From positions 1-58,983 of the IMG/VR virus record IMGVR_UViG_3300044712_002220: DNA of 58,983 bases; one strand, written 5' to 3'. The translations under genes and the position numbers were made by a program. This DNA comes from a virus. Below are positions 2,490-45,444 of the stretch, in pieces (positions within the stretch are counted from its first letter, which is position 1; the number at the start of each line of letters is the position of its first letter). The notes beneath the pieces were generated by a model that saw only the letters and a list, made by a program, of their open reading frames with translations, did not search any database and was not told where the DNA came from.

Positions 2490-2689
2490 CGCGCCCCTTG
2501 CCGACCCGAGACGACGTGCTCCGCGCCCGCGACTGGCTGCGCGCCGGCGCCCCGGCGGCGCCCACCAAGCGCGCCGCGGACGCGGGACCCGACCGCGCCG
2601 TCGCCGTCCTGCTGCAGCTCATCGAGGCCCTGCCGGACCGGATCCCCGAGTACTGCTACGGCTACCAGCCCCCGGGAGACGCGCCATGA
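2486..2689 (+). CDS. Hypothetical protein, 67 aa
   Basis: ATG start overlapping the previous TGA, preceded by a purine-rich GGAGGAGG ribosome-binding sequence. A short helical protein with an N-terminal basic/Pro segment. No recognised domain. Confidence 0.55.
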   Translation: MTRPLPTRDDVLRARDWLRAGAPAAPTKRAADAGPDRAVAVLLQLIEALPDRIPEYCYGYQPPGDAP

Positions 2690-2946
2690 CCGCCGTCGCC
2701 GTTCTGGACCCCGAGGAGCTCGAGGCGCGCGTCGCCGCCGCCGTCGGGCGCGCCCTCGAGCCGGTCCGCGCCGAGCTCGCCCGCCTGCGCGAGGAACGGG
2801 CAGCCGAACCCCTCACGATGCGCGAGGCGGCCAAGCGCCTCGGCGTGTCCCTCCGCACCGTCGAGCGCCGCGTCGCCGCCGGCGAGTTCCGGGTGGTCCG
2901 CACCGGCCGGGCTGTGCGGGTGTTCATCCCTTCGGACGAGGGGTGA
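2686..2946 (+). CDS. Excisionase-like MerR-type HTH protein, 86 aa
   Basis: Residues 10-42 form a charged helix or coiled coil. Residues 44-86 are a helix-turn-helix of the HTH_17/excisionase type: LTMREAAKRLGVSLRTVERR, then a basic GRAVRVF wing. It lies directly upstream of the integrase (gap 4 bp). In temperate phages this position is commonly held by a recombination directionality factor that binds att DNA and promotes excision. That role is inferred from location and fold. Confidence 0.75.
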   Translation: MTAVAVLDPEELEARVAAAVGRALEPVRAELARLREERAAEPLTMREAAKRLGVSLRTVERRVAAGEFRVVRTGRAVRVFIPSDEG

Positions 2947-2950
2947 CACG

Positions 2951-4237
2951 GTGCAGCGCCTCGGGGTACCGTCCGGACCCATGTCCCGACGCCGCTGGGG
3001 TAGTGGCGAGCTCGTCCCCCCCGCGCGCCCCGGCGGCCCCTGGGCCTTCCGCTGGCGCGAGAACGGCCGCCGCAGGTACAAGGGCGGCTTTCCCACCCGC
3101 GACCTCGCCCAGCGCGCCTTGGACCGCCTGCGGGGCCGTCTCGCTGAGCAGCGCGCGGGGCTCCCGCCCGAGCTGCGCACCCTCCCCACCCTCGGCGCCC
3201 TCGCCGAGGAGTGGCTCGACCGGCGTCAGCACACCCACCGCGACTGGCGACACGACCGAGGCCGATGGACCGGCCACCTCGCCCCCGCCTTCGCGAAGCT
3301 GAAGCCGCCCGAGGTCGACTCCGGCCGCATCCGGTCGTTCGTCGAGGACCGGCTCCGCGCTGGCCTCGACCCCGCCACGGTCCAGCTCTGCGTCCGCGAG
3401 CTCTCCACCCTCTTCTCGGACCTCGCCGAGCGGCCGGCGGAGACGGGCGTCCAGGTGAACCCCGTGCGCGGGCTGCCGCGCGCGACGCGCCGCCTCTTCA
3501 AGCCGCGCCACGACCCGCGGCTCGTGCCCTACGTCGAGACCCTCGCCCAGGTCCGGAGCCTCTTCCGGACCATGCCGCGCGTCGAGGGCGTGGCCTACGC
3601 GATCGGCGTCCTCGCCGGCCTGCGCACCGCGGAGATCCTCGCCGTCGAGTGGGAGCGGATCGACCTCGACGCCCGAAGACTGATCGTGCGGTGGCAAGTC
3701 CAGCACGGCGAGTTCGCGCCGCTGAAGGATGACGAGGCGCGCATCGTGCCGATCTCCTCCGCCCTCCTGCCGGTCCTCGCCGCCTACCGCCTCGAGACGG
3801 GCGGCCGCGGTCTGCTGTTCCCTCCCGCGCACCCCGGCCGCCGCTCCGGGCCCACCCGGAAGCCCGCTCGGTTCATGCGGCCGCACCGCCTCGCCGACGC
3901 GCTGAAGGCCGCCGCGCGCGAGGTGGGGCTGCCGGCGATCTGCGACTGGGAGAAGCCCTGGTACCAGGCGACCCGGCACACCTACGCGAGCCAGTACGTC
4001 CTCGCCGGCGGTTCGCTCGAGCAGCTCTCCGTGCTCCTCGGCCACTCCTCGACCGAGGTCACGAAGCGGTACGCCCACCTACGGCCGGACGCCCTCGCCC
4101 GCGCGGACGTGGACCGCATCGCCGTCGACCTGACGGGGGGTCCCGCCCCCGTCCTGAGCCTGAAGGATGGCCAGCCGTTGGCCAGTGCGACCCGCCACGG
4201 CGAGGGGCGGATCGCTGGGAAACACAAGCGGGCGTGA
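2951..4237 (+). CDS. int: Tyrosine recombinase (phage integrase)
   Basis: A 428-residue site-specific recombinase. The N-terminal arm-binding region (about 20-75) has a WAFRWRENGRR stretch, then a SAM-like core-binding domain (80-180) and a catalytic domain (195-385). Visible catalytic residues are Arg225 (GLRTAEI), Lys259, Arg342 (QATRHTYAS), His365 (LGHSS) and the nucleophile Tyr374 (KRYAH). The usual first His of HxxR is Gln339. The GTG at 2951 is used here; the ATG at 2981 is an alternative. A probable attP begins inside the 3' end of the gene (arm repeat at 4167-4186) and continues just beyond it, so int and attP are adjacent. Confidence 0.95.
   Translation: MQRLGVPSGPMSRRRWGSGELVPPARPGGPWAFRWRENGRRRYKGGFPTRDLAQRALDRLRGRLAEQRAGLPPELRTLPTLGALAEEWLDRRQHTHRDWRHDRGRWTGHLAPAFAKLKPPEVDSGRIRSFVEDRLRAGLDPATVQLCVRELSTLFSDLAERPAETGVQVNPVRGLPRATRRLFKPRHDPRLVPYVETLAQVRSLFRTMPRVEGVAYAIGVLAGLRTAEILAVEWERIDLDARRLIVRWQVQHGEFAPLKDDEARIVPISSALLPVLAAYRLETGGRGLLFPPAHPGRRSGPTRKPARFMRPHRLADALKAAAREVGLPAICDWEKPWYQATRHTYASQYVLAGGSLEQLSVLLGHSSTEVTKRYAHLRPDALARADVDRIAVDLTGGPAPVLSLKDGQPLASATRHGEGRIAGKHKRA
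4167..4186. repeat. Integrase arm-type repeat, left
   Basis: ATGGCCAG-CCGT-TGGCCAGT, inside the last codons of the integrase gene. It pairs with the copy at 4410-4429 and is centred about 100 bp left of the tRNA-like core. Each unit also contains two TGGCCA palindromes 12 bp apart. Confidence 0.75.
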
Positions 4238-7067: not shown

Positions 7068-8663
7068 CTACGGGTTGAAGACGCGGACGGACACGGTCTG
7101 CGAACCGGCCGGGGTGATCGGGGCCGCGGAGACGTTCGCGGTCCGGAGCGTGACCGTGTTGGTGGCCGACACGTAGGCCGACTGGATGAGACCGGCCTCC
7201 AGTGTCGCGGGCCCGCCCACCGACACCTCGGCTCCGACGGCGGCGCCGGTGACGGTGATGTTCTGCGTCACCGTGGCGCCGGCTGCGATGGCCCCGGTGG
7301 AGAGCGTCGTGGTGGCGCGGATGCTGGCGCTGATCGCGGTCCCGGACGCGCCGATGGTCGTTCCGTTCGCGTCGAACTTCGCCACGTCCGTCGCCGCGTT
7401 GACGGACATCGTGATCGAGGACGACCCGAGCTTCAGCGGCTTCCAGGCGGACCCGGGAGCAAGGCTGCCGAGGAAGCCCACGCCGGCGGTCTCGTTCCAC
7501 CGCAGGAAGATGGCGCCCGAGGACGCACCGCTCGTCGGCTCGCGGCCGACCACGAGATCGTCCCCGGTCCAGTATGACGGGCCGTACACCGTCGCGACGC
7601 TCTTCACGTGCAGACGCGCGCCGGTCGGGGCTGAGACGCCGATCCCGCAGTTGCCCGTGACGCCATCAACCATGAACGGCGTCGAGAGCCCTGCCGCTCC
7701 GACGGTGAGGGTCGCGGTAGGGGTCGAGTTCCCGCCGATCCCGACGCGGGAGTTGTTCAGGTCGATGAACAGATCGTTGACGTACGTATTGGGTGTGGCC
7801 GCCAGGCTGTGACCCAGCACGATCCCGCGCGTTCCTCCGACGGGGAGGACGACGTTGCTGCGCATGTACGCGACGCCCGTGCCTGGGTTATCGAACCCAA
7901 GCCTCATCACGCCGCCGCCTTCGACGAGATCGAACCCGGGGCTGGTGGTCGTCATCGCTCCCGGGTCGGCGGGCCACTCGACCTGGAACACGGGCGCGCT
8001 CACCCGAGGCGAGAACGCCGCGAGCGTTCGGTCGAGAACGAGACCCCACGTGGACCGGTCAACCGCCCACTTCCACGTGTCGTAGCCGGTGCCCCAGTTG
8101 TGGGTGAACGCCAGGGATCTCGACTGCCATGCGCCAGTGCTGGGGTTCCCGAAATCGAGGTTCCACTCGAAGTCGGCGTTCGGGTCAGGGTTGGCTCCGC
8201 TCTGCGTCCAGTGCGACTCGAGCTGGAACGACACCGACCCGAGCGTGTTCACGTCGCGCGTTCGGTTTCCACCACTCCCCGCGACCGCGTCCTCCTTCCA
8301 GTTGTACTGGATCGCGAACACCTGGTCGTCCCGGTTCGGAGCCGGAGCGGAAGTCGAACAGAGGCGCCACGACGCGTTGCCGGCGTGAGGCGTGAGCCTC
8401 AGCGCCTGGGCCTCCGGAACCGCATGCCCGTCCTGGAACACCTTCTCGCCGGCGAGTGTCTGCGCGGCCGTCGTGATGAGGCCGCGCGTCGCCGCCCCCG
8501 CGTCAGGCGGGTCGTACGCGAGGGACGCCCACGCGGTCGACCCATCGCCGACCTTCCGCCGGCCCGTGTCGGTCTCGAGTGCCTGCTCACCCTGCGCGAG
8601 CACCGGGTTCGCGGACGTCCACTGCGCAGCCGTGCCGCGGCGGAGCTGGATCTTGGTCGCCAT
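7068..8663 (-). CDS. Tail fibre protein, 531 aa
   Basis: Begins with the KIQLRRGTAAQWTSANPVLA motif and VGDGSTAW, the N-terminal signature of phage fibres that join a collar to a trimeric shaft. The rest is Gly/Thr/Ala-rich beta sequence with repeated SVNAATDV / GIGVSAPTGARLHV elements of fibre shafts. No C-terminal intramolecular chaperone motif is seen. ATG at 8663 overlaps the stop of the upstream gene. Likely host-recognition fibre. Confidence 0.8.
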   Translation of the reverse strand: MATKIQLRRGTAAQWTSANPVLAQGEQALETDTGRRKVGDGSTAWASLAYDPPDAGAATRGLITTAAQTLAGEKVFQDGHAVPEAQALRLTPHAGNASWRLCSTSAPAPNRDDQVFAIQYNWKEDAVAGSGGNRTRDVNTLGSVSFQLESHWTQSGANPDPNADFEWNLDFGNPSTGAWQSRSLAFTHNWGTGYDTWKWAVDRSTWGLVLDRTLAAFSPRVSAPVFQVEWPADPGAMTTTSPGFDLVEGGGVMRLGFDNPGTGVAYMRSNVVLPVGGTRGIVLGHSLAATPNTYVNDLFIDLNNSRVGIGGNSTPTATLTVGAAGLSTPFMVDGVTGNCGIGVSAPTGARLHVKSVATVYGPSYWTGDDLVVGREPTSGASSGAIFLRWNETAGVGFLGSLAPGSAWKPLKLGSSSITMSVNAATDVAKFDANGTTIGASGTAISASIRATTTLSTGAIAAGATVTQNITVTGAAVGAEVSVGGPATLEAGLIQSAYVSATNTVTLRTANVSAAPITPAGSQTVSVRVFNP

Positions 8664-26714: not shown

Positions 26715-27248
26715 CTACTGGGCGGACGCGGCGACCTTCGCGACGTCCTCGGGCTTCACGCCGAGCTTGGCCGCGATGCTCTTCTGCTCGTCCGTGACGG
26801 CGGCGGGCGTCGGCTCCTGGCCGGGCTTCTTCGCGTCGACGACGGGGGTGACGACCGGCGCGGCCGCGGCGAGGAACGCCTCGAGCGACGCGATCGGCTG
26901 GTCCTTCGCCCACGCCTCGAGCGCCGGCGGGAGCTTCCCCTCGCGCTTGCCCTGGTCGATGAGCGCGTCGCGCTTCGCCTGGAGCTGGGCCTTCTCGATC
27001 GCGTCGAGCTTGGCAACGAGGCCCGGGACCTTCTCGGCCTCGGCCTTGAAGCCCTGGATCGCGCCGAGCGCCTCGGCGGAGGTGGCCTTGCCGGTGAGGG
27101 CGAGGACGGGGGCGAGCGCGTCGGCCGCGGCCTTCGCCTCGGTGCGGGCGCGGGCGCCGTCGTCCTGCACGCGGGCGAGCGCGGCGATGATGTCGGCCTC
27201 GGAGGCGGTCTCGGGGAGGCCCAGGCGGGCGGCGATGAGCTTGAGCAT
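26715..27248 (-). CDS. Nested scaffold protein, 177 aa
   Basis: In-frame ATG at 27248 (residue 272 of the protease gene) preceded by AAGGAG with 6-base spacing, one of the best ribosome-binding sites in the operon. The product is the Ala/Lys/Glu-rich helical scaffold alone (LKLIAARLGLPETASEADII ... EDVAKVAASAQ). This repeats the lambda C/Nu3 and Mu I/Z arrangement, in which a separate scaffold is made from within the protease gene. Confidence 0.8.
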   Translation of the reverse strand: MLKLIAARLGLPETASEADIIAALARVQDDGARARTEAKAAADALAPVLALTGKATSAEALGAIQGFKAEAEKVPGLVAKLDAIEKAQLQAKRDALIDQGKREGKLPPALEAWAKDQPIASLEAFLAAAAPVVTPVVDAKKPGQEPTPAAVTDEQKSIAAKLGVKPEDVAKVAASAQ

Positions 27249-28061
27249 GTGCGGCTCCTTCGGATCCGCGCTGGGCGCGGGGGTGATGGGGGCGGGGTGC
27301 GGCACCGCCGCGTGCGCGGCGAGCCGGAGCGTCTGGGGGGTCTTCTCGAAGCGGTCGAGCGCGGAGGCGTGAAGCGCGACCACGGCGACGTCGGCGTCGC
27401 CCTCGGTCTCGTGCGAGAGCCCGGAGTCTTTCGCCTCGGCGGCGGTGAACCACCGCTCCTCGGCCATCCACGCCTTGACCTCGTCGAGGGGCTTCCCGGT
27501 GCGCTTCGCGTAGGTCTCGGCCATGAGCGCCGAGGCCTGGTCGAGCCGCTCCGCGAGCTTCCGCATGTCGCCGGACTCGCCGGCGGCGTGCGGGGTGCGC
27601 GCGTTGTGCACCATCCACTGCGCGTTCGCGGCCGTGACCCGATGGTCGCAGGCGAGGGCGATGACGGACGCGATCGAGGCGGCGAGGCCGTCGACCGAGC
27701 AGACCTTCTTCGCGGCCTCGAACCGGGCGATGGCGTTGTAGATCGCCAGACCCTCGAAGAAGTCGCCGCCGGGGCTGGAGACCCTGACCCGGAGCTCCGA
27801 GCAGCCGCGGCACGCCTCGAGCGCGCGCACGACGTCGTTCGCGGAGACCCCGGAGGAGAAGAGCCCGGAGCCGCCGCCGATCTCGTCGTAGAGGTACAGC
27901 TCCGCGACGCCGCCGGCCTGCGCGCGGACGTACGAGGACTTCCCGAATCGGAGCGGCTCGGCGCCCGCGGGCCCGGCGATGATGCGGGCCTCGGGCGCCT
28001 GGCCGGCGAGGAGGGCGACGCGCTGCGGGGCGTGGATTCCGCTCACGTGAGCGGGTGGCAC
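26715..28061 (-). CDS. Head maturation protease (ClpP/S14-like) with C-terminal scaffold domain, 448 aa
   Basis: Residues 45-220 form a ClpP-like serine protease: SSPGGDFFEGL near 95-105, catalytic Ser129 in GLAASIAS, His152 in MVHNA, and the helix following. A Pro-rich linker (252-270) leads to a charged helical scaffold region (272-448), as in Mu I. GTG start at 28061; no clear Shine-Dalgarno, and a 7-bp hairpin lies 22 bp upstream. The scaffold part has its own start (see nested gene). Confidence 0.85.
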   Translation of the reverse strand: MPPAHVSGIHAPQRVALLAGQAPEARIIAGPAGAEPLRFGKSSYVRAQAGGVAELYLYDEIGGGSGLFSSGVSANDVVRALEACRGCSELRVRVSSPGGDFFEGLAIYNAIARFEAAKKVCSVDGLAASIASVIALACDHRVTAANAQWMVHNARTPHAAGESGDMRKLAERLDQASALMAETYAKRTGKPLDEVKAWMAEERWFTAAEAKDSGLSHETEGDADVAVVALHASALDRFEKTPQTLRLAAHAAVPHPAPITPAPSADPKEPHMLKLIAARLGLPETASEADIIAALARVQDDGARARTEAKAAADALAPVLALTGKATSAEALGAIQGFKAEAEKVPGLVAKLDAIEKAQLQAKRDALIDQGKREGKLPPALEAWAKDQPIASLEAFLAAAAPVVTPVVDAKKPGQEPTPAAVTDEQKSIAAKLGVKPEDVAKVAASAQ

Positions 28062-29727: not shown

Positions 29728-30090
29728 TCACCTCCCCGGCTTCGCCGCGCGGCGCCGCGCCCTCGTCGGGTGAGTCGGCCTCTCGGGTTCGACCCCGATC
29801 TTCAAGGGGACCATCTTCTCGCCGAAGAGCGCGTAGGAGTGGAACTCTCCCCCGAGCGCCTCGAGGTAGCGCCGGATGGTCGAGACCTGGACGTCGCGCC
29901 GCTTCTCGAATCGCCCGACCTCGACCCCCGAGACCCCCATCGCCTCCCCGACCTCCTCCTGCGTCCTACCAGCGAGCGCGCGCAGCTCGGCGAGGGTCGC
30001 GCCGTTCACAGAGAACGGGGCCCACCGCTTGTTCTCCGCGATCTTCTCCGGCGACGTGCGTCGGACTTCCTCCCACCGCTTCGTCTCCAT
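29728..30090 (-). CDS. XRE-family antitoxin (HigA-like), 120 aa
   Basis: Residues 24-85 carry an XRE helix-turn-helix: ATLAELRALAGRTQEEVGEA, MGVSGVEVGRFEKRRDVQVS, TIRRYLEALGGEF. It lies downstream of a HigB-type toxin, the order usual for higBA. A basic Pro-rich tail may wrap DNA. Ribosome-binding site GTAGGAGG before the ATG at 30090. Expected to bind the toxin and repress the promoter at 30538-30566. Confidence 0.8.
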   Translation of the reverse strand: METKRWEEVRRTSPEKIAENKRWAPFSVNGATLAELRALAGRTQEEVGEAMGVSGVEVGRFEKRRDVQVSTIRRYLEALGGEFHSYALFGEKMVPLKIGVEPERPTHPTRARRRAAKPGR

Positions 30091-30155: not shown

Positions 30156-30530
30156 CTACCTCCGCCACCCGTTCGCCCGAAGGTAGGCGTCCCAGAGCTT
30201 CCCCGCCCGCTTCGCCATCTTGGCCGTCCACGGGCCCTCGTCCGCGACGCCCTTCTTCGCCCCGCCGAGGATGAGCACCGCGGCCCGGTTGGGGTTGAAG
30301 GCGTAGAATACCCGCATCGCAAAGGCCCGCGTGGCCGGGCGAAGCTCAAGGATCGGCTCCTTCGCGTCCGTCACCTTCTTGGCGTGGGGCATGGTGAGGT
30401 GCGGGCCGTACTGGGCGAGTAGCCCGACCGAGTAGTCCACCGCCGCCTGCTGCTCGGGGGTGAGGTCCCGGTACCACTCCACGGCCTCGGCCATCCACAG
30501 CACCGTCGTCGGAATCGGCGTCATCGTCAT
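30156..30530 (-). CDS. RelE/HigB-family toxin (phage Gp49-like), 124 aa
   Basis: DUF891/HigB pattern: EAVEWYRDLTPEQQAAVDYS, LLAQYGPHLTMPHAKKVTD, ILELRPATRAFAMRVFYAF and AAVLILGGAKKGVADEGPW. These proteins are ribosome-dependent mRNA endonucleases. Two ATG codons (30530, 30524) lie right at the predicted transcription start, so the mRNA is probably leaderless. The antitoxin follows 65 bp downstream. Confidence 0.8.
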   Translation of the reverse strand: MTMTPIPTTVLWMAEAVEWYRDLTPEQQAAVDYSVGLLAQYGPHLTMPHAKKVTDAKEPILELRPATRAFAMRVFYAFNPNRAAVLILGGAKKGVADEGPWTAKMAKRAGKLWDAYLRANGWRR

Positions 30531-33082: not shown

Positions 33083-33528
33083 CTGGGCTGCTCCTTCGCC
33101 CCCTCGACCCGGGCCACGGAGAGGAGCGCGTACCCCGCGATGTCCCGCCACGGAGACTCGCCCAGCGCGTCGCGCGAGGTCGCGATCCGGAAGAGCTTGT
33201 CGAGGACCCGGACCACCGTCAGCGCGTCGTCCATCTTCTCGGGCGGAACGCCGTCGGGGTACAGGATCCGCATCACTGCGCCGGCCTTCCCGAAGCTGTC
33301 GCCGTAGGCAGCCTGCTTCTCCGCCACGAGGCGGCCGATCTCGCCGCCGATGCGCTCCCAGGGGGCCGCGGTCGCCTCCTGCGTGCTCACGGGGACACCC
33401 GTCGACGTCCCGATCTGCGGCGCCCATGCGGGCCACGCCGGCGCGGTCGCCTCCAGCGCCTTCCCGCACTGGCCACACACGGTGACCCCCTCGACGTGAG
33501 CGACGGGGCAAGAGCACAGGGTCGTCAT
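33079..33528 (-). CDS. MazG-like/DUF1599-type protein with N-terminal zinc pair, 149 aa
   Basis: CSCP...CGQCGK (Cys5, Cys7, Cys18, Cys21) at the N-terminus, then IGGEIGRLVAEKQAAYGDSF and MDDALTVVRVLDKLFRIATS, ending in IAGYALLSVARVEG. The E-K-Q-x-x-Y-G-D and R-x-x-D-K pattern resembles all-alpha NTP pyrophosphohydrolase-type proteins linked to nucleotide modification (DUF1599). Family assignment is tentative. Confidence 0.6.
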   Translation of the reverse strand: MTTLCSCPVAHVEGVTVCGQCGKALEATAPAWPAWAPQIGTSTGVPVSTQEATAAPWERIGGEIGRLVAEKQAAYGDSFGKAGAVMRILYPDGVPPEKMDDALTVVRVLDKLFRIATSRDALGESPWRDIAGYALLSVARVEGAKEQPR

Positions 33529-34205
33529 GTTCCGGTCCTCCGGTACTCGTCCTGGAGCTGCGCGGGGTAGCGGGAGAGGTCGGGCTCCCACGGGATGTCG
33601 GGCTTCCCGCCGAAGCCCTCGTCCGCGGCCACGTCGGGCCCGGGCGGGAGCGGATCGTCGCCGACCTCGGACCTCGACCGGGTCACGACGAGCGAACGAC
33701 AGGAGAAGTGCAGGGGCGGGATGCGTCCGTCCCACCACGGGTCGTCGGCGGGGCGCACGACGCCATCGAGCGTGCGGCACGTGATCGTCGTGCGCAGGTC
33801 GAGGATCGCGGAGAAGCTCCGGTACGGCCTCGCCTGCTTCACCGCGGGGTGCTCCATCTGGACCCAGCGGCCGGCGGAGAAGGCGCGCTGGACGTTCGTC
33901 CTGTAGATGGTCTCCACGCGCCACGGCTGCTCTCGCCCCCACGCCGCGGTGAGCCTGGCGGAGACGCGCTTCCGGAAGTCCTCGAAACTCTCGCCGCGCG
34001 AGACGGCGCGGTCGAGCGCCTCCCAGACCTCGGTGACGAGGTCGAGTTGCGAGACCCCGGCGATCGTGAACGCCTGGTCGTGCGACGCCTCGGCGAGCGC
34101 GTTGAACTCGTCGTCGCTCATCAGTAGCCGCTCCCGGAACCAGCGGACGGCATCGTCGCTGGAGCGTGGGTCGGCGGGAGGCTGCGCCGGGGGCTTGCGG
34201 GGCAT
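33525..34205 (-). CDS. Minor head protein, Mu gpF (SPP1 gp7)-like, 226 aa
   Basis: Head morphogenesis domain: DDEFNALAEASHDQAFTIAG, then ESFEDFRKRVSARLTAAWG, VETIYRTNVQRAFSAGRWVQ and C-R-T-L-D-G-V-V with HFSCRSLVV. These match the MuF family that sits next to the portal. Start ATG at 34205 chosen because GGAG lies 5 bases before it. Shorter than Mu F; the C-terminal part may be missing. Confidence 0.85.
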   Translation of the reverse strand: MPRKPPAQPPADPRSSDDAVRWFRERLLMSDDEFNALAEASHDQAFTIAGVSQLDLVTEVWEALDRAVSRGESFEDFRKRVSARLTAAWGREQPWRVETIYRTNVQRAFSAGRWVQMEHPAVKQARPYRSFSAILDLRTTITCRTLDGVVRPADDPWWDGRIPPLHFSCRSLVVTRSRSEVGDDPLPPGPDVAADEGFGGKPDIPWEPDLSRYPAQLQDEYRRTGT

Positions 34206-34217
34206 GCGCACTCCGGC

Positions 34218-36140
34218 CTACTTCGCCGCGACCTCCTTCTGCACCGAGTACCGCCCCGAGAGCTGCGCCATGAGGATGCAGCGCCGGAGCGAGTCCGCGA
34301 GGTCGTCCTCCCGCATCTCGGCGTACGCGGCGAGGAGCGCCGCCTTGATCCCCTCCGCGTCGATGCGCCCGTCCTCGAGCGGCTTCGCCTCGGCGAGCAC
34401 GCGCTTGAGGGCGCGCACGTCGCCGGCGAGGATGCGCGCCGCCTCGTCCCGGCCGCGGACCGCGAGCTCGTCCACGTACGCCTGGCCCTGGAGCGGGGCG
34501 CGGTCCCGCCGGCCGAGCCGCGACGCGGAGAGCGCCGCCCGGATGACCCCGGTGTCGGCCCGGGCCGCCGCGAGAGCCTTGCGCTGCCGCTGCTCCTCCG
34601 GGTCCTCGTCGTCCGGATCGTCGTCGGGCTCCGGCTCCTCGGGGTCGTCCTCCGGGAGCGGGATCTCGACGCCCTCGACCAGGGGGATCCCGAGGCGCTC
34701 GCACACCGCCGCGAAGTCGACCGGCAGCCCCGTCGCGCGGAGCGTGGAGATCGCCTCGGCGCCGGTCTTCACCGCCTCCGCGGTGCCCTTCTTGTCCTCG
34801 GGCGGGCTCGTGTCCCACGCCGGCCGCGGCGCCTTCCCGTCCGCCTTCGGGCCGAAGTTCAGGACCGCCCACTCGGCGAGGAGCTGCCCGCGGATGGCGT
34901 CGGAGATCGTCGACGCGTCGGAGCGGATGATGGACGCCGCGACGCGCTCGTGCACCTGGGCGGCCGCGTAGGCGCCGCCCTTCACCTCGGCGGTGAGGTT
35001 CTGCCCGAGCAGGACGATCGCGATCGAGCTGTTCGCCTGCTCCATGCCCAGCTTGAACGAGTCGTACGTCCGAGCCGTCGCCTCGATCAGCTTGAGGTCG
35101 AACCCATGGCCCTCGCGGTTCTGTGGGAGCCGGACGACCGACTCCGAGGCGAGCTTCGCGACCTCGCGCAGCGCCTTCCGCTTCTCGTCGTCCTCCCACT
35201 CGGACGGCTCGATGACCGCGCGGATCGGGAGCCCGTGGACCTCGTTGTAGCGGCCCCAGTCGCGGTACCCGAACTGCCGGAACAGCCACGGGATCGCGAG
35301 CGAGCGGATGAGGCCCTCCATCCACCCGGCGCGCCCGTAACCGAACGGCGCGTAGATCACCCAGTGCGGATCGCCCTCCCGCACCTCGACCGGCCCGTCC
35401 TGCGTCGAGAGCCAGAACGACCGGGTGGTCCAGTTCCAGTACAGGTACCGCGGGTGCCAGACCTTGAGCTTCGGCACCCAGCCGTCACGGCTCTCGGTGT
35501 CGTAGAGCTTCTCGGCGATGCCGATGCCGAGGAAGCGGCCCCACTTCCAGAGCTCGCGCAGGTCCGCGCTCGAGGCCATGCGCGGCCAGAGCGCGCCCGC
35601 CTGCTCCGCGAGTTCGGCGGCGAACGCGTCGTCCTCGTCCGACGGCTCGAGATGGAAGTCGAGCCCGAGGAGGCCGTCGATGCGCTGGGAGACGACGCCC
35701 TTGATCCGGTCGTCCGCCATCATGGCGTCGACGATCTCGGCCGCGGCGGTGAACTGGCCCTGCTCGAACTGCACGAGGGCGGCCCGGACCGCCGTGACGG
35801 TCTCGTAGGCGGTCGAGTAGCTGACGACCGGGAGGTCGTTGAGGCGCTTCGCCTCGACCTTGATCCGGCGGCCCTCGACCTCGACGACCTGGCTGGGCAC
35901 CGGCGCGGCGCCGGGGCGGTCCGGTGGCTGGCCGAGAGGCGGCGTGGCCGGGTCCGCCGCGAGGGCGGCGACGACCTTGCCGAGGCTGCTCGAGGAGACG
36001 TGCCCGCCGGCCTCGATGGCCGTCACGGTGCGGCGGGAGACGCCCGCGCGCTGCGCGAGACCCGCCTGCGTCCACCCGACCTGCTCTCTCGCCGCCCGAA
36101 TCCCGCCGCCAGTGATCTCGCTCACCGTCTCGGGTGACAC
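34218..36140 (-). CDS. Portal protein (Mu gp29-like, DUF935) fused to N-terminal XRE helix-turn-helix, 640 aa
   Basis: Residues 12-62 are a complete XRE HTH: GIRAAREQVGWTQAGLAQRA, GVSRRTVTAIEAGGHVSSSS, then LGKVVAALAA. After a Pro-rich linker (63-85) comes a full DUF935 portal (residues 86-560) with VDAMMADDRIKGVVSQRIDG, WGRFLGIGIAEKLYDTESRD and HPRYLYWNWTTRSFWLSTQD, then an acidic D/E-rich loop and a helical tail. GTG start; no in-frame stop and no good internal start separate the two parts. TGCGCA repeats lie just upstream. Confidence 0.85.
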   Translation of the reverse strand: MSPETVSEITGGGIRAAREQVGWTQAGLAQRAGVSRRTVTAIEAGGHVSSSSLGKVVAALAADPATPPLGQPPDRPGAAPVPSQVVEVEGRRIKVEAKRLNDLPVVSYSTAYETVTAVRAALVQFEQGQFTAAAEIVDAMMADDRIKGVVSQRIDGLLGLDFHLEPSDEDDAFAAELAEQAGALWPRMASSADLRELWKWGRFLGIGIAEKLYDTESRDGWVPKLKVWHPRYLYWNWTTRSFWLSTQDGPVEVREGDPHWVIYAPFGYGRAGWMEGLIRSLAIPWLFRQFGYRDWGRYNEVHGLPIRAVIEPSEWEDDEKRKALREVAKLASESVVRLPQNREGHGFDLKLIEATARTYDSFKLGMEQANSSIAIVLLGQNLTAEVKGGAYAAAQVHERVAASIIRSDASTISDAIRGQLLAEWAVLNFGPKADGKAPRPAWDTSPPEDKKGTAEAVKTGAEAISTLRATGLPVDFAAVCERLGIPLVEGVEIPLPEDDPEEPEPDDDPDDEDPEEQRQRKALAAARADTGVIRAALSASRLGRRDRAPLQGQAYVDELAVRGRDEAARILAGDVRALKRVLAEAKPLEDGRIDAEGIKAALLAAYAEMREDDLADSLRRCILMAQLSGRYSVQKEVAAK

Positions 36141-36143
36141 GGG

Positions 36144-36167
36144 TGCGCAAGTTGCGCAACCTGCGCA
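36144..36167. repeat. Triple TGCGCA repeat upstream of the portal gene
   Basis: Three TGCGCA palindromes at 36144-36149, 36153-36158 and 36162-36167, spaced exactly 9 bp, in the 30-bp gap between terminase and the HTH-portal gene. Repeated palindromic hexamers are typical operators. They could be recognised by the fused XRE domain, but this is untested. Confidence 0.6.
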
Positions 36168-36170
36168 CGT

Positions 36171-37673
36171 TCACCACGAGCGCTTGACGGTGGGGGACTC
36201 GGCGTCGCCGAAGGTGACGACCGACCCCTCCGAGAGTTCGGTCAGCGCCCACACCAGCGCGTCGACGCGGTCGGGGCTCCTCTCGTTCCCCTCGGGGAGG
36301 AACGTCACCATCTGGTCCTCGAGCTCGGCGAGCGCGCCGACGTGGTGGACCTTCTTCTGCTCGTAGAGCGCGCTGATCGGCTCTGCCCGAACCCGCTTCC
36401 CGCGGCTCGCGCGCACCGCCTTGAACGGGACGTTCTTCCGCACGGTCCGGATCGTGGTCTCGACGAGGTCGCCGCCGTTGTTTACCTCGCCGACGATGAG
36501 ATCGCCCTGCAGGTCGTCGTACGTCACAACGGCCCGGCGCGCCCAGGCGTCGGGCGAGAGGTGGCAGGTCCGGTCCGCGAGGACGTAGAAGTGCCCGTCG
36601 GCCCCCTTCCCCGCGGCAACGATTCCCGTGTCGTCGGACTCCTCGCCGGCGGTGACCGCCGGATCGACGCCGACCACGATGCGGACGAGCTCTGGTGCAG
36701 CCCTGACCCGAAGCTCGTCGAGGACGGCGCGCGTCCAGAGCGCCCCCGGCACGTCGTCGAGCACCTCGCCGTTGAGTTCCTGGCGGCCGAGGCGCGTCCC
36801 CTCGTACTTCGCCCGGAGTTTCGCGAGCTGCGGCGGGGCCAGGTTCGCCGCGTTGTCGAACGTCGACCCCCGGGTGATGACCGTGGTGCGCTCCGCCATG
36901 AGCTCCCGGAGCACCTTCACCGGCCGCGGCGTCGTCGTGACCAACACGCGCGGCACGTCGCCGAGACGTAGGCCAAACATCAGGTTGTCCCAGGTCTCCT
37001 CGAGGTACTTCCACGAGGCGAGTTCGTCTGCCCAGGCACCGTGGTGCTGCGGGCCGCGAAGCGCGTCGGGCTCCTCCGCCGTGAAGGTCGTCGCCATGAA
37101 CCCGTTCGGCCACGTGAGGCGCCGCTTCGACGGCTCGTAGTTCGGCGCGAAGTCGGGAGGCGAGCAGGCGATGAGCCCGGACTCGCCCTCGATCATCGTG
37201 TCGCGCACGTCGGCGGCGGTGCGCGCGACGAGCGCCCAGCGCCACTTCGGGTGGGCCCGGGCGTTCTCGATCACCCACTGCGCCCCGGTCCTCGTCTTCC
37301 CCCAGCCACGCCCCGAGAGGATGAGCCAGGTCAGCCACGCACCGGCGGGGGCCGCATCATCCGGCGGTGCCAGTTGCTCCGGGCGCGCCCATAGCCCCCG
37401 CCAGTCGTAGAGGAGCGCCTCGGCCTCCCGATCCGAGAGCTCGTCGATCGCCTCCGCGATGACGTTCTCGGGCGCCCCGCGCAGCGCGTCCACGAACCCT
37501 CCCGGCTGGCTCCGGAGCGCCGGCCCACACGGAGCCGCCGGCGCCACCTCCGCCGGGCGCTCTTCCCGGCGCGCGGCGGACGCCTGCGCCGGCGGCCGGG
37601 GCGGCGCGGGCGGTGCGACGACCTGCCGGAGCCGAGCGACCTCCGCGGCGAGCTGGGCGAGGCGGTCGTTCAT
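36171..37673 (-). CDS. terL: Terminase large subunit, 500 aa
   Basis: ATPase with Walker A-like LILSGRGWGKTRTG (about residues 117-130) and ADELASWKYLEE as the Walker B region, then LGDVPRVLVTTTPRP. The nuclease domain starts near VRIVVGVDPAV with its first metal-binding Asp, and continues with GDLIVGEVNNGGDLVE and SPDRVDALVWAL. Of the Terminase_6 class. ATG overlaps the small subunit stop. A Pro-rich N-terminal 60 residues precedes the motor. Confidence 0.9.
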   Translation of the reverse strand: MNDRLAQLAAEVARLRQVVAPPAPPRPPAQASAARREERPAEVAPAAPCGPALRSQPGGFVDALRGAPENVIAEAIDELSDREAEALLYDWRGLWARPEQLAPPDDAAPAGAWLTWLILSGRGWGKTRTGAQWVIENARAHPKWRWALVARTAADVRDTMIEGESGLIACSPPDFAPNYEPSKRRLTWPNGFMATTFTAEEPDALRGPQHHGAWADELASWKYLEETWDNLMFGLRLGDVPRVLVTTTPRPVKVLRELMAERTTVITRGSTFDNAANLAPPQLAKLRAKYEGTRLGRQELNGEVLDDVPGALWTRAVLDELRVRAAPELVRIVVGVDPAVTAGEESDDTGIVAAGKGADGHFYVLADRTCHLSPDAWARRAVVTYDDLQGDLIVGEVNNGGDLVETTIRTVRKNVPFKAVRASRGKRVRAEPISALYEQKKVHHVGALAELEDQMVTFLPEGNERSPDRVDALVWALTELSEGSVVTFGDAESPTVKRSW

Positions 37674-38152
37674 CCCGCCGGCGTCTCGGGCGGCGCCCCT
37701 CCGTCCTTCCGGTCCGTGGCCTTGAGGAGCGACGCGAGGCGCTGCGCGAGCCGCTCGCGCGCGTCGTTCACCTCGATCGGCCCGCCGTCCTTCCCGGTCA
37801 GTTGCATCACGTCCGGCGCCTTCCCGATGGTCCGGTCCGTGAGCCACTGCGCCGCCATGAAGCGAACGATCGCGGGTGCCTTCTTGATCTCCCCCCTCAC
37901 AAGGTCGACGCAGAACTGCGCCTGAAGCTGCATGTCGTCCGTCATCGAGCGGAGGAGCTCGGCGAACTCCCGCTGTCCGCGCGGGCGGCCGCCGGGGTTC
38001 CCGGAGACGCCCTTGACGAACCGCCCCGCGCCGTCTCGTGCGCCCTCAGGGTGCCTGTTCTCAGGCGCTTCCGGCGGCTTCGCGTCCGTCTGGCCAGCGG
38101 GAATCGAACCCGTGCTCTTCTTTCGCGGTTCCGGCTGCTTGCGCTTCGCCAT
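37670..38152 (-). CDS. terS: Terminase small subunit-like protein (DUF5681 type), 160 aa
   Basis: Contains AGRFVKGVSGNPGGRPRG (about residues 42-59), the signature of DUF5681 proteins found just before large terminases, then a helical DNA-recognition region (FAELLRSMTDDMQLQAQFCV). ATG at 38152, 38 bp after the upstream gene. Direct coupling to terL supports the role. Confidence 0.8.
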   Translation of the reverse strand: MAKRKQPEPRKKSTGSIPAGQTDAKPPEAPENRHPEGARDGAGRFVKGVSGNPGGRPRGQREFAELLRSMTDDMQLQAQFCVDLVRGEIKKAPAIVRFMAAQWLTDRTIGKAPDVMQLTGKDGGPIEVNDARERLAQRLASLLKATDRKDGGAPPETPAG

Positions 38153-41931: not shown

Positions 41932-42762
41932 TCACCACGGCTTCTCGTCCTTCGCGAACGCTTCCGCGCTGCCCATCGGCGCCATTCCAGGGCGCTTCCC
42001 GGGCGGCAACGCCCCCGCCTTCCGCGCGAGCCAGCGCGCGTGCTTCGCGACGAACGTGTCGAGGTCGAGCTTCGAGCCCCAGAACTCGTCGGCCGCGGCG
42101 GCGTCCATGGCCGCGCAGATCGCAGCGACGCCGTGCTTGTTGCTCAGGACGGCGAGGCTCTGGGCTTGCGTCGTCGTGACATCGGGGCACGCGGCGCCAG
42201 ACAGCTTCGGCCACACCTTCCCGGTCCAGTGCGCAACGGCCTCGAATGCCGGCGACCCGACCCCCACCCTCGCGATGCGCTGCGGATGGGCTGTGCTGTG
42301 CTGATCTGCGTTGTGCTGATCTGTGGGCACTGCGGTGTCCGGCGTGGTCGCATTGCGGTCGAACTCCGGTCGCAATGCGGTCGCATCGCCCTGTTCCTGT
42401 GGTTCCGCTGTGTTGTCGCGCTTGCTCCAGCGAGACCGTGCCCCGGTCCTTCCGGCCTCGGACCGCAGCATCGCCTCGGCGCGCTCGTCCTCGAGTCGTG
42501 GGGACGTCATCCGACCGTGGTCCGACGGGTGTGGGATGAAGCGATCACCGATGGCCGACCACACCGCGGCGAAGCTCTTCGGGCTCATCCGGAGGATGCG
42601 CGCGAGTGCCTTCGGGTCATCCGGGATCGACCCGTTCGTCCACGCGTGGAGGATGAGCGTGAACCACGCCCCCCGCTCGGTGACGGTCCAGGATGCGAAC
42701 CGCTCGTCGGCGAGCGTCTCGGCCGGGAAGAACTTCAGGTACGGCAGCAGATCGCCGGCCAT
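41932..42762 (-). CDS. Replication initiation protein, DUF1376-like N-terminus, 276 aa
   Basis: The N-terminal domain (residues 8-85) matches DUF1376/YdaU: YLKFFPAETLADERFASWTV, ERGAWFTLILHAWTNGSIPD, and a winged-helix pattern. A low-complexity Asp/Thr/His region (115-160) follows, then a C-terminal helical domain. Typical neighbour of DnaC-like loaders in phages, where it acts as the initiator/DnaT-like factor. Confidence 0.8.
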   Translation of the reverse strand: MAGDLLPYLKFFPAETLADERFASWTVTERGAWFTLILHAWTNGSIPDDPKALARILRMSPKSFAAVWSAIGDRFIPHPSDHGRMTSPRLEDERAEAMLRSEAGRTGARSRWSKRDNTAEPQEQGDATALRPEFDRNATTPDTAVPTDQHNADQHSTAHPQRIARVGVGSPAFEAVAHWTGKVWPKLSGAACPDVTTTQAQSLAVLSNKHGVAAICAAMDAAAADEFWGSKLDLDTFVAKHARWLARKAGALPPGKRPGMAPMGSAEAFAKDEKPW

Positions 42763-43325: not shown

Positions 43326-43511
43326 CTACTTCGCCTCCTTCCCCACCACCCGGAGCCTGGGCACCGCTCGCGGCGACCCCGCCTCCTTCGCCGCGAGCTC
43401 GGCCAGCGCGCGCGCCGCCTTCGCGGCGAAGTGCGCCGCCACCGTGGTCCGGCCCGACTCCATCGCCCAGGTGGCGATGTGCAGGTCTCGGGTGATCTCG
43501 CGGTCCGTCAT
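43326..43511 (-). CDS. Small hypothetical protein, 61 aa
   Basis: ATG overlapping the methyltransferase stop (ATGA). Helical (EITRDLHIATWAMESGRTTV), basic C-terminus. Unknown function. Confidence 0.55.
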   Translation of the reverse strand: MTDREITRDLHIATWAMESGRTTVAAHFAAKAARALAELAAKEAGSPRAVPRLRVVGKEAK

Positions 43512-44884
43512 GCGACCTCCGAAGCACGGACCGGCTCGGCGAACTGGGCCCGGACGATGGCCGCGGCGATCGGCGGGCAGACGGAGTTCCCAGCCATCCG
43601 GACCTGCGCCGTCTTCGTGAGCGGCGCCCCTTGGTACTCCGGCGCGATCTGGTAGGAGTCCGGGAAGCCCTGGGCGCGGTAGAGCTCCCTGGGCGCGAGC
43701 ATCCGCATCCCGATGTCCGCGACCTCATACGCCTGGCCGTGGATGGTGACGAGGCCGAACCGGTCCTTCGTCGTCACCGTGTGCAGCGGCATGCGGAGCT
43801 GCGGGTCCTGGTCGGTGCCGTAGTAGGCGAGGAGGAAGGCGCGAACCTCGGCGGCCCGCGACCCGTGCCCGAGCTGCGCGGTGACCAGGGCGTGGTGGTC
43901 CTTCGCGGTGATGGTCGGGATCGCCATCTGGAGAGGTGCGCCGTCGTTCTCGTGCCCGCCGTAGTGGCGGGCGAGGAACGCTGCGACCAGGGCGTGCTTG
44001 ATCCCGCCTCCGACCACGGTCCCGAGGGGTGCCTGGATGTCGAGGCAGCGCGGCGCCTGACCCTTCCGCTCGCCCCAGCTCTGCTGGATGAGCGTCGGCG
44101 CGACCAGCCCCGACACGACGAACGGGTCCCGCGCCTCGAGGACGTACCGCCGCATCCCGCGCGCGATCCGCCGGAGCGTCGCCTCGGCGAGCGGCCGCTC
44201 GCGCCCGAAGATGGAGGGGCACTCGAGGGACCAGTCCATGCACTCGGCCGCGGTCCGGTACGGGATCCGGCCCGGGCCGTGGGTCGGCGACGGCCAGACG
44301 ATCGGCAGCCCGTCGGACCGCGCGATGACGAACAGCCGCTTGCGGGTCGTGGGGGCGCCGTAGTCGCAAGCGCGGAGCTCGCGCCACTGGACCTCGTACC
44401 CGGCGGCGCGGATCTTCCCGACCCAGATCCGGAAGGTGAGGCTCTTCCGCATCGGGTCGGGGTTCCCGTCGGCGAGGAGCGGGCCCCACTCGGCGAACTC
44501 CTCGACGTTTTCGAGGCAGATGACGCGGGGCTTCACCGCCCGAGCCCATCGGTTCGCCACCCACGCGAGCCCGCGGATCTTCGCGTCCCGAGGCTTCCCT
44601 CCCTTGGCCTTCGAGTGGTGCTTGCAGTCGGGGCTGAACCACGCGAGCGCGACGCGCCGGCCCGCGCACGCCTTCACCGGATCGACCGCCCAGACGTTCT
44701 CGCAGTAGTGCCGCGTCGCTGGGTGGTTGGCCGCGTGCATCGCGATGGCCTCGGGGTCGTGGTTGATCGCGATGTCGGGGGACCGGCCGAGGGCCGTCTC
44801 GATGCCCAGGGAGGCGCCGCCGCCGCCGGCAAACGAGTCGACGATCAGTTCCTCGGTGTGGATCCGCAGGACCGGGGGCCTCAT
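43508..44884 (-). CDS. DNA (cytosine-5) methyltransferase, 458 aa
   Basis: Motif I DSFAGGGGASLGIE (16-29), motif IV FSPDCKHHS with catalytic Cys87 (Pro-Asp-Cys instead of Pro-Cys), motif VI ENV (125-127), motif VIII RKRLFVIAR (181-189), and motifs IX/X near the C-terminus (RELYRAQGFPDS, AGNSVCPPIAA). The SPDCxHHSKAKGG form is typical of phage-encoded enzymes. It probably protects phage DNA from host restriction. Confidence 0.9.
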   Translation of the reverse strand: MRPPVLRIHTEELIVDSFAGGGGASLGIETALGRSPDIAINHDPEAIAMHAANHPATRHYCENVWAVDPVKACAGRRVALAWFSPDCKHHSKAKGGKPRDAKIRGLAWVANRWARAVKPRVICLENVEEFAEWGPLLADGNPDPMRKSLTFRIWVGKIRAAGYEVQWRELRACDYGAPTTRKRLFVIARSDGLPIVWPSPTHGPGRIPYRTAAECMDWSLECPSIFGRERPLAEATLRRIARGMRRYVLEARDPFVVSGLVAPTLIQQSWGERKGQAPRCLDIQAPLGTVVGGGIKHALVAAFLARHYGGHENDGAPLQMAIPTITAKDHHALVTAQLGHGSRAAEVRAFLLAYYGTDQDPQLRMPLHTVTTKDRFGLVTIHGQAYEVADIGMRMLAPRELYRAQGFPDSYQIAPEYQGAPLTKTAQVRMAGNSVCPPIAAAIVRAQFAEPVRASEVA

Positions 44885-45444
44885 GCCGCCCTCCCCGCCC
44901 GCGCCGGCCTCGTCGGCGTCCAGACCATGCCGTGCGGCTCGAACGCCGCGTGGAAGACCGCGGGGCGCGGGCCCCAGTAGGCGAACGACACCGGGAAGGG
45001 CGCGCAGGCCGCCGCCCCGACGAACCGCAGCCGCCCGCGCCAGTGACAGATCAGCGCCGCCGTCGAGACGTGGTCGTGGAAGTACGCGGTGTCGGTCCGC
45101 GACGGGAAGAGCAGGATGACCTCCGCCCCCCGCTCCGCCTCGGCGACGCACTTCGCGCACCAGGCCGCGAGCTCCCCGAAGTCCGGGTTCACGAAGCATC
45201 GCCCGGCCCAGGGCAGCTCCAGCCCGTCGCCGATGGTCAGCCGCTCCTCGAACCCCGCGATGACCCAGCCGTCGCCGAGGTGGTCCGGGATCCAAATGTG
45301 GTGGGCAGCGAGGCCCCAGGCGTCGGGGTGCCCGCACGGATCGAGATCGATCTCCCCGAACACCTTCCGAACCACGGCGAGTTCGCCCGCCGAGGTGCGC
45401 CAGTCGCCGCGCGCGGAGCGCAGCATGTACCCGCGGTCGCTCAC
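44881..45444 (-). CDS. Phage DNA N6-adenine methyltransferase (Dam family), 187 aa
   Basis: Phage Dam family: DWRTSAGELAVVRKVFGEID, then DPCGHP, GRCFVNPDFGELAAWCAKCV with the catalytic NPPY replaced by Asn86-Pro-Asp-Phe, then VILLFPSRTDTAYFHDHV. GTG start overlapping the upstream TGA, AGGAGG 8 bases upstream. The NPDF change deserves testing for activity. Confidence 0.85.
   Translation of the reverse strand: MSDRGYMLRSARGDWRTSAGELAVVRKVFGEIDLDPCGHPDAWGLAAHHIWIPDHLGDGWVIAGFEERLTIGDGLELPWAGRCFVNPDFGELAAWCAKCVAEAERGAEVILLFPSRTDTAYFHDHVSTAALICHWRGRLRFVGAAACAPFPVSFAYWGPRPAVFHAAFEPHGMVWTPTRPARAGRAA

Follow-up and report, generated by a model that had tools for sequence, protein, structure and literature searches.

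Two related, uncultured phages are predicted to encode a portal protein of the Mu/JBD30 type that has acquired an XRE helix-turn-helix (HTH) domain, carried on a flexible linker in one polypeptide. The first is represented by a single virus record, IMGVR_UViG_3300044712_002220, whose 58,983 bp constitute the whole stretch of DNA that was analysed and are referred to below as the window. The second is contig G036 (IMGVR_UViG_3300044712_001509, 65,278 bp), where locus L057 shows the same HTH-linker-portal order as the window at 62% identity; the two phages are syntenic through the head, tail and several other genes. In both of them, the HTH domain is part of the portal protein rather than a stand-alone or sensor-linked XRE regulator, and, to judge from the sequences, the fused protein is very probably made.

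Domain structure and neighbourhood of the fusion gene

The earlier note on this DNA had described one uninterrupted frame in which a Pro-rich linker separates an XRE domain from a portal, and both points hold. The ORF lies on the minus strand, runs from 36140 to 34218 and encodes 640 amino acids from a GTG codon in a single open frame, within which Pfam detects HTH_3 (E 3.6e-10, 40.1 bits against a curated cut-off of 23) and Portal_Mu (PF06074; E 3.3e-56, 191.5 bits against a curated cut-off of 23.9). The same combination recurs in the second phage, with HTH_3 at 33.1 bits. The HTH part matched only regulator and DNA-binding families and no terminase small-subunit family. In phmmer searches of solved structures, the window portal matched 8rka of JBD30 (E 2.7e-23) and 9khx of Mu, and the top Foldseek matches of the AlphaFold model of the fusion were the portals 8rka, 9knu and 9khx (for 8rka, E 8e-17, TM 0.68 on target). 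In this model, pLDDT is 92–95 in the HTH, mostly 92–97 in the wing part of the portal body, and falls below 50 over a portion of the linker, with a minimum at ORF residues 66–71; a β-hairpin is placed N-terminal to the portal body.

Table 1 Features of the fusion gene and its surroundings in the window.
Feature	Position	Strand	Remark
HTH-portal fusion gene, most likely extent	34218..36125	-	635 aa from GTG codon 6; maximal ORF from 36140
XRE/HTH_3 helix-turn-helix domain, residues 14–60	35961..36101	-	Core TQAGLAQRAGVSRRTV
Pro/Ala-rich linker, residues 63–82	35895..35954	-	Low predicted confidence
GTG codon 81	35898..35900	-	Sole ATG/GTG/TTG between the HTH and the first portal-body residues in the window
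Predicted β-hairpin SQVVEVEGRRIKVE, residues 83–96	35853..35894	-	AlphaFold
Portal_Mu domain, residues 135–485	34686..35738	-	Pfam
Near-perfect palindrome GTGCGCAAGTTGCGCAACCTGCGCAC, 26 bp	36143..36168	.	No other gapless palindrome in the window has 12/13 arm pairs; candidate operator or packaging site
Three 9-bp repeats of the TGCGCAAGT type (iterons)	36144..36171	.	Contain TGCGCA; form the palindrome
Terminase large subunit, terL (Terminase_6N/6C)	36171..37673	-	TGA stop 45 bases upstream of fusion GTG codon 6
Small DUF5681 protein, candidate terminase small subunit (terS)	37670..38152	-	Weak PHROG terS match
Mu gpF-like head protein (Phage_Mu_F)	33525..34205	-	Directly after the portal gene
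Head maturation protease	26715..28046	-	ClpP-type domain and Mu-like protease I in one protein

The portal body is homologous to JBD30 gp32 (8rka) and Mu gp29 (9khx/9knu), with terL upstream in common. Compared with these portals, where the alignment of the window protein starts at JBD30 residue 2, the fusion adds about 80 residues in front, comprising the XRE HTH and the Pro-rich linker, and its C-terminal part has a longer acidic stretch. The closest isolated phage is the contractile-tailed, Mu-like Myxococcus phage Mx4 (OK085710; 43% identity over residues 97–488), in which the portal gene also directly follows terL, but the Mx4 portal has only 23 residues ahead of the aligned body and no HTH, and its gene begins immediately after terL, with no repeat array. 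As in XRE/lambda-repressor-like regulators (HTH_3, PF01381), a canonical HTH within a predicted helical bundle is found with a palindrome beside its own gene; unlike in those regulators, the HTH is joined to a virion structural protein and not to a dimerisation or sensor domain. The connector gp10 of phage phi29 is also a portal with an N-terminal tail that contacts nucleic acid, but that tail is short and basic, binds the packaging RNA, and is not a folded sequence-specific domain.

The two fusion proteins differ in conservation along their length. Amino-acid identity is highest in the portal core (72%), followed by the HTH (63%), the C-terminal part (47%) and the linker (32%), which also differs in length; the corresponding dN/dS values (NG86, with dS compressed by a G+C content of 72%) are about 0.52 for the HTH, 0.42 for the portal core and above 1 for the linker. 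Within the HTH, helix 2 (6/8 residues), the turn GVS (3/3) and the beginning of helix 3, RRTV in both phages, are best kept. Because the HTH is more conserved than the C-terminal region of the portal, it must be under selection.

The fusion gene is placed between terL and the Mu gpF-like head gene, as expected of a Mu gp29-like portal. Several other features of the window were observed. Among the head genes, a Gp49/HigB-like toxin gene (29728–30090) is followed by an XRE antitoxin-like gene (30156–30530), and no counterpart of this pair was found in G036 by protein similarity. A tyrosine integrase and an excisionase-like HTH gene (2686–4237) mark the phage as probably temperate. A tail-fibre-like protein with an N-terminal domain of the Mtd (major tropism determinant) type is encoded at 7068–8663, and adjacent genes for C5-cytosine and Dam-type DNA methyltransferases at 43508–45444. 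An 11-bp repeat, GGTCGCAATGC, occurs in three to four copies at 42346–42385, within a gene (41932–42762) adjoining an IstB-like ATPase gene, and resembles the iterons of a replication origin located in an initiator gene. The 35 consecutive C at the contig end (58949–58983) are probably a sequencing or assembly artefact.

Translation start and rarity of the fusion

GTG codon 6 (36125), which aligns with the start in the second phage and is also picked by a codon-usage gene finder, is more likely to be the start of the fusion than codon 1. Both fusion starts lack a Shine-Dalgarno match (0.6/−3.8 and −2.5 kcal/mol), whereas most other starts checked in these phages have one (−8 to −12.6 kcal/mol), which makes initiation unusual and perhaps subject to control. 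The statement in the earlier note that no credible internal start is visible is correct in effect but not literally, since GTG codon 81 is present. Initiation there would yield a product beginning MPSQVVEVEG, close to the canonical JBD30 portal start MAQIVDVYG, as would be the case if the fusion were an annotation artefact, with the portal beginning inside the ORF and the HTH being a separate or untranslated piece. However, GTG81 has no Shine-Dalgarno match (−1.7 kcal/mol), and the codon at this position in the second phage is CCC (Pro); we therefore rejected it as a portal start. In the second phage, no ATG, GTG or TTG occurs from the HTH recognition helix to ATG125, which is itself within the portal body, and translation of an HTH-less portal is thus unlikely. 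The HTH is moreover in the same frame as the portal, with a stop-free junction in both phages and coding-like codon usage (log-odds +21.1 and +16.1, the other five frames being negative in both). We consider an annotation artefact highly improbable.

The presence of the same fusion in a second virus record rules out an assembly chimera, a missed stop or a chance frame; there is no stop between the two parts in either phage. Read-through from the terminase gene into the fusion was also rejected: terL and the fusion share a frame in the window, whereas their frames differ in the second phage.

The portal-alignment search identified 62 related loci in IMG/VR and five in genomes. Apart from L057, none of the 66 other portal loci, a few of which are cut off at a contig end, has an HTH in the portal frame, and no HTH was detected when the N-termini of some 60 portal relatives were examined. 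A whole-contig HTH_3 search of 35 contigs with Mu-type portals gave a match to the portal only in G036, and further IMG/VR scans revealed no third fusion. In the phyla to which the Phenylobacterium and Microbacteriaceae records belong, the 299 and 396 genomes sampled contained three portal relatives and no fusion. Portal matches occur in 232 phage records, of which none covers 80% of the query and the HTH-less Mx4 is the nearest. Locus L110 gave a weak match containing an in-frame TGA, which was dismissed as Ala-rich noise. These results exclude a general family of HTH portals in the 35 contigs, the relatives and the genomes searched. The literature search found no HTH-portal fusion either, in line with the remark in the earlier note that no portal with a repressor-type HTH was known; the search of portal families that it had proposed thus yielded one further fusion and none in the remaining relatives.

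In the portal tree, the two fusions group together in a single clade (support 1.00) next to HTH-less sister portals, which, as far as these collections show, points to a single gain in one lineage. Capture of the HTH from a neighbouring gene of the relatives was considered and rejected, as the sister portals (L058, L060 and L062) have none there. The HTH genes in the terL-portal gaps of two other loci, L068 and L071, were rejected as a source because they are of other types (MerR and MarR-like). At L068, a small MerR-type HTH gene (3584–3802) in this gap is followed by about three copies of a 9-bp repeat, TCGTTCGCC (3863–3889), and the locus represents, by its sequence, an independent HTH-plus-iteron arrangement. 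L071 encodes, between terL and the portal gene, an HNH endonuclease (3450–3980) that has a MarR-like HTH as its tail and overlaps the portal start.

Predicted position of the HTH in the head

In JBD30, the crown and wing of the portal are internal already in the procapsid, as well as in the capsid, and the top of the wing is lined by a positive rim of Arg13, Arg18 and Arg146, which contacts the portal-wrapped DNA (PMC11445458). By BLASTP, window residues 83–96, the predicted hairpin, align to JBD30 residues 2–15, with Lys94, replaced by Arg in the second phage, at the position of Arg13. Because the alignment becomes uncertain past JBD30 residue 15 and no such hairpin is present in the nearest HTH-less relatives, we infer, rather than read off, the exact junction of HTH and portal body. 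Given that the N-terminal region of the JBD30 portal faces the head interior by the wrapped DNA, the HTHs probably end up inside the capsid, tethered by about 20 flexible residues. The idea put forward in the earlier note, that the HTH guides DNA at the vertex, is weakened by this comparison as far as guiding from the outside is concerned; contact with DNA already in the head would fit.

Such contact could take the form of a clamp in the lumen, in which twelve HTHs hold the packaged DNA at the wing with little sequence preference, reinforcing the ring of DNA there, and the repeat array next to the gene (see below) is unrelated. The DNA ring of JBD30 is held by the three arginines named above, and the N-terminus is located there (PMC11445458); the conserved basic residue at position 94 and the net charge of the HTH, +3 in both phages, are consistent with a clamp. 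We nevertheless consider it unlikely, as it leaves a genome-unique array beside the gene unexplained, XRE domains are usually sequence-specific, and the hairpin bearing Lys94 is not shared with the nearest HTH-less relatives.

The HTH might, on the other hand, be a captured domain that is passive or temporary, either cleaved off at head maturation by the ClpP/Mu I-type protease or of use during assembly only. The window encodes this protease, which could in principle process the portal, and the linker is disordered and variable. In the Mu virion, the portal gp29 lacks its last 124 residues, a loss ascribed to protease I (PMC11915804). That cleavage is at the opposite end of the protein, however, and the selection evident from the higher identity of the HTH relative to the portal C-terminal region speaks against a passive domain, which we regard as quite improbable.

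The repeat array in the terL-portal gap and its possible roles

A repeat array that forms a palindrome, and that the earlier note had not picked up, lies between terL and the fusion gene. The sequence TTGCGCAA occurs once in the 59 kb, against 0.19 occurrences expected, and the motif GTTG[CT]GCAAC is found once per genome in each of the two phages, both times in the terL-portal gap. Just 0.17% and 0.03% of same-sized segments of the two genomes reach the combined density of TGC and GCA found in the gap. The gap of the second phage contains three GTGCAAC and two CGCGCA-type copies and no long palindrome, and the array is only partly conserved between the phages. RNA folding is strong in the gap of the window (z −3.1), but not in that of the second phage (z −0.7), which argues against the gap functioning mainly as an RNA hairpin and favours a DNA site. 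With a genome-unique palindromic array in this position and a related array in the second phage, the suggestion in the earlier note that the portal could bind its own gene gains support, and we lean, on balance, towards the fusion's HTH reading the adjacent array.

A first broad motif scan returned mostly chance coding matches. In a scan of all viral contigs for 9-bp TGCGCA arrays, 64 stretches were found, 47 of them no more than 200 bp from a terminase small-subunit gene start. The terS genes belong to unrelated families (phrog_370 in 38 cases and Terminase_2/phrog_51 in nine) and include those of Aeromonas and Klebsiella phages; the 47 arrays amount effectively to two lineages. At these loci (L141–L204; for example, L143:169–230 and L141:3440–3510), the arrays are located at or just before the terS starts, where they are possibly pac or operator arrays. 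They resemble the array of the fusion in lying at the start of a packaging gene, except that the latter is at the terL-portal boundary beside a portal-borne HTH.

Since the arrays of both lineages tie TGCGCA repeats to packaging genes, a role in packaging stays live and fits the arrays as well as regulation does. The array would then be pac-like, with DNA recognition moved from terS to the portal HTH and the pac end brought to, or anchored at, the vertex; no HTH was detected in the candidate terS of the window. Against this stand the small number of lineages behind the 47 sites, the location of pac sites, usually in or near terS and here 1.5 kb off, and the N-terminus of the JBD30 portal, which is inside the procapsid and away from the motor (PMC11445458), so that an encounter of the HTH with pac DNA would be limited to the time before assembly or after DNA entry. 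We therefore rate packaging-site recognition as a rival, if a rather unlikely one, to autoregulation, our leading, though tentative, reading.

Under autoregulation, the HTH would recognize the TGCGCA repeats or palindrome directly before the fusion's own start, and free, unassembled portal bound to the array would lower expression from the portal gene onward, keeping the 12-copy portal scarce. Once built into the procapsid, the portal would have its HTHs facing the interior, cut off from the site, and repression would be relieved; in the virion, the twelve HTHs would lie beside the DNA wrapped around the portal wing. No sigma-70-like promoter was found at the array, which is located inside a block of genes on the same strand, and repression would accordingly have to act as a roadblock or at translation. 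Other considerations also weigh against autoregulation: repression at the array would also hit the downstream head and tail genes, the repeats of the second phage (GTGCAAC and GCGCAA) form no long palindrome, and the fusion has only two known members. The complete sequence of array binding, repression by free portal and release on assembly is thus possible and no more than tentatively proposed. That the portal senses head assembly, as the earlier note had also suggested, is a plausible extension; a portal doubling as a regulator of its operon, silenced once assembly locks the HTH inside the capsid, seems rather doubtful.

To our knowledge, portals are regarded as structural rings without sequence-specific DNA reading of their own. 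A conserved repressor-type domain together with a candidate site would mean that the portal itself has a part in controlling how much portal is made or which DNA is packaged. The fusion would also provide a test case for how an assembly starter of twelve copies is kept scarce, for which the usual answer is translation strength alone. If the proposed autoregulation is true, virus assembly would be read directly by gene expression.
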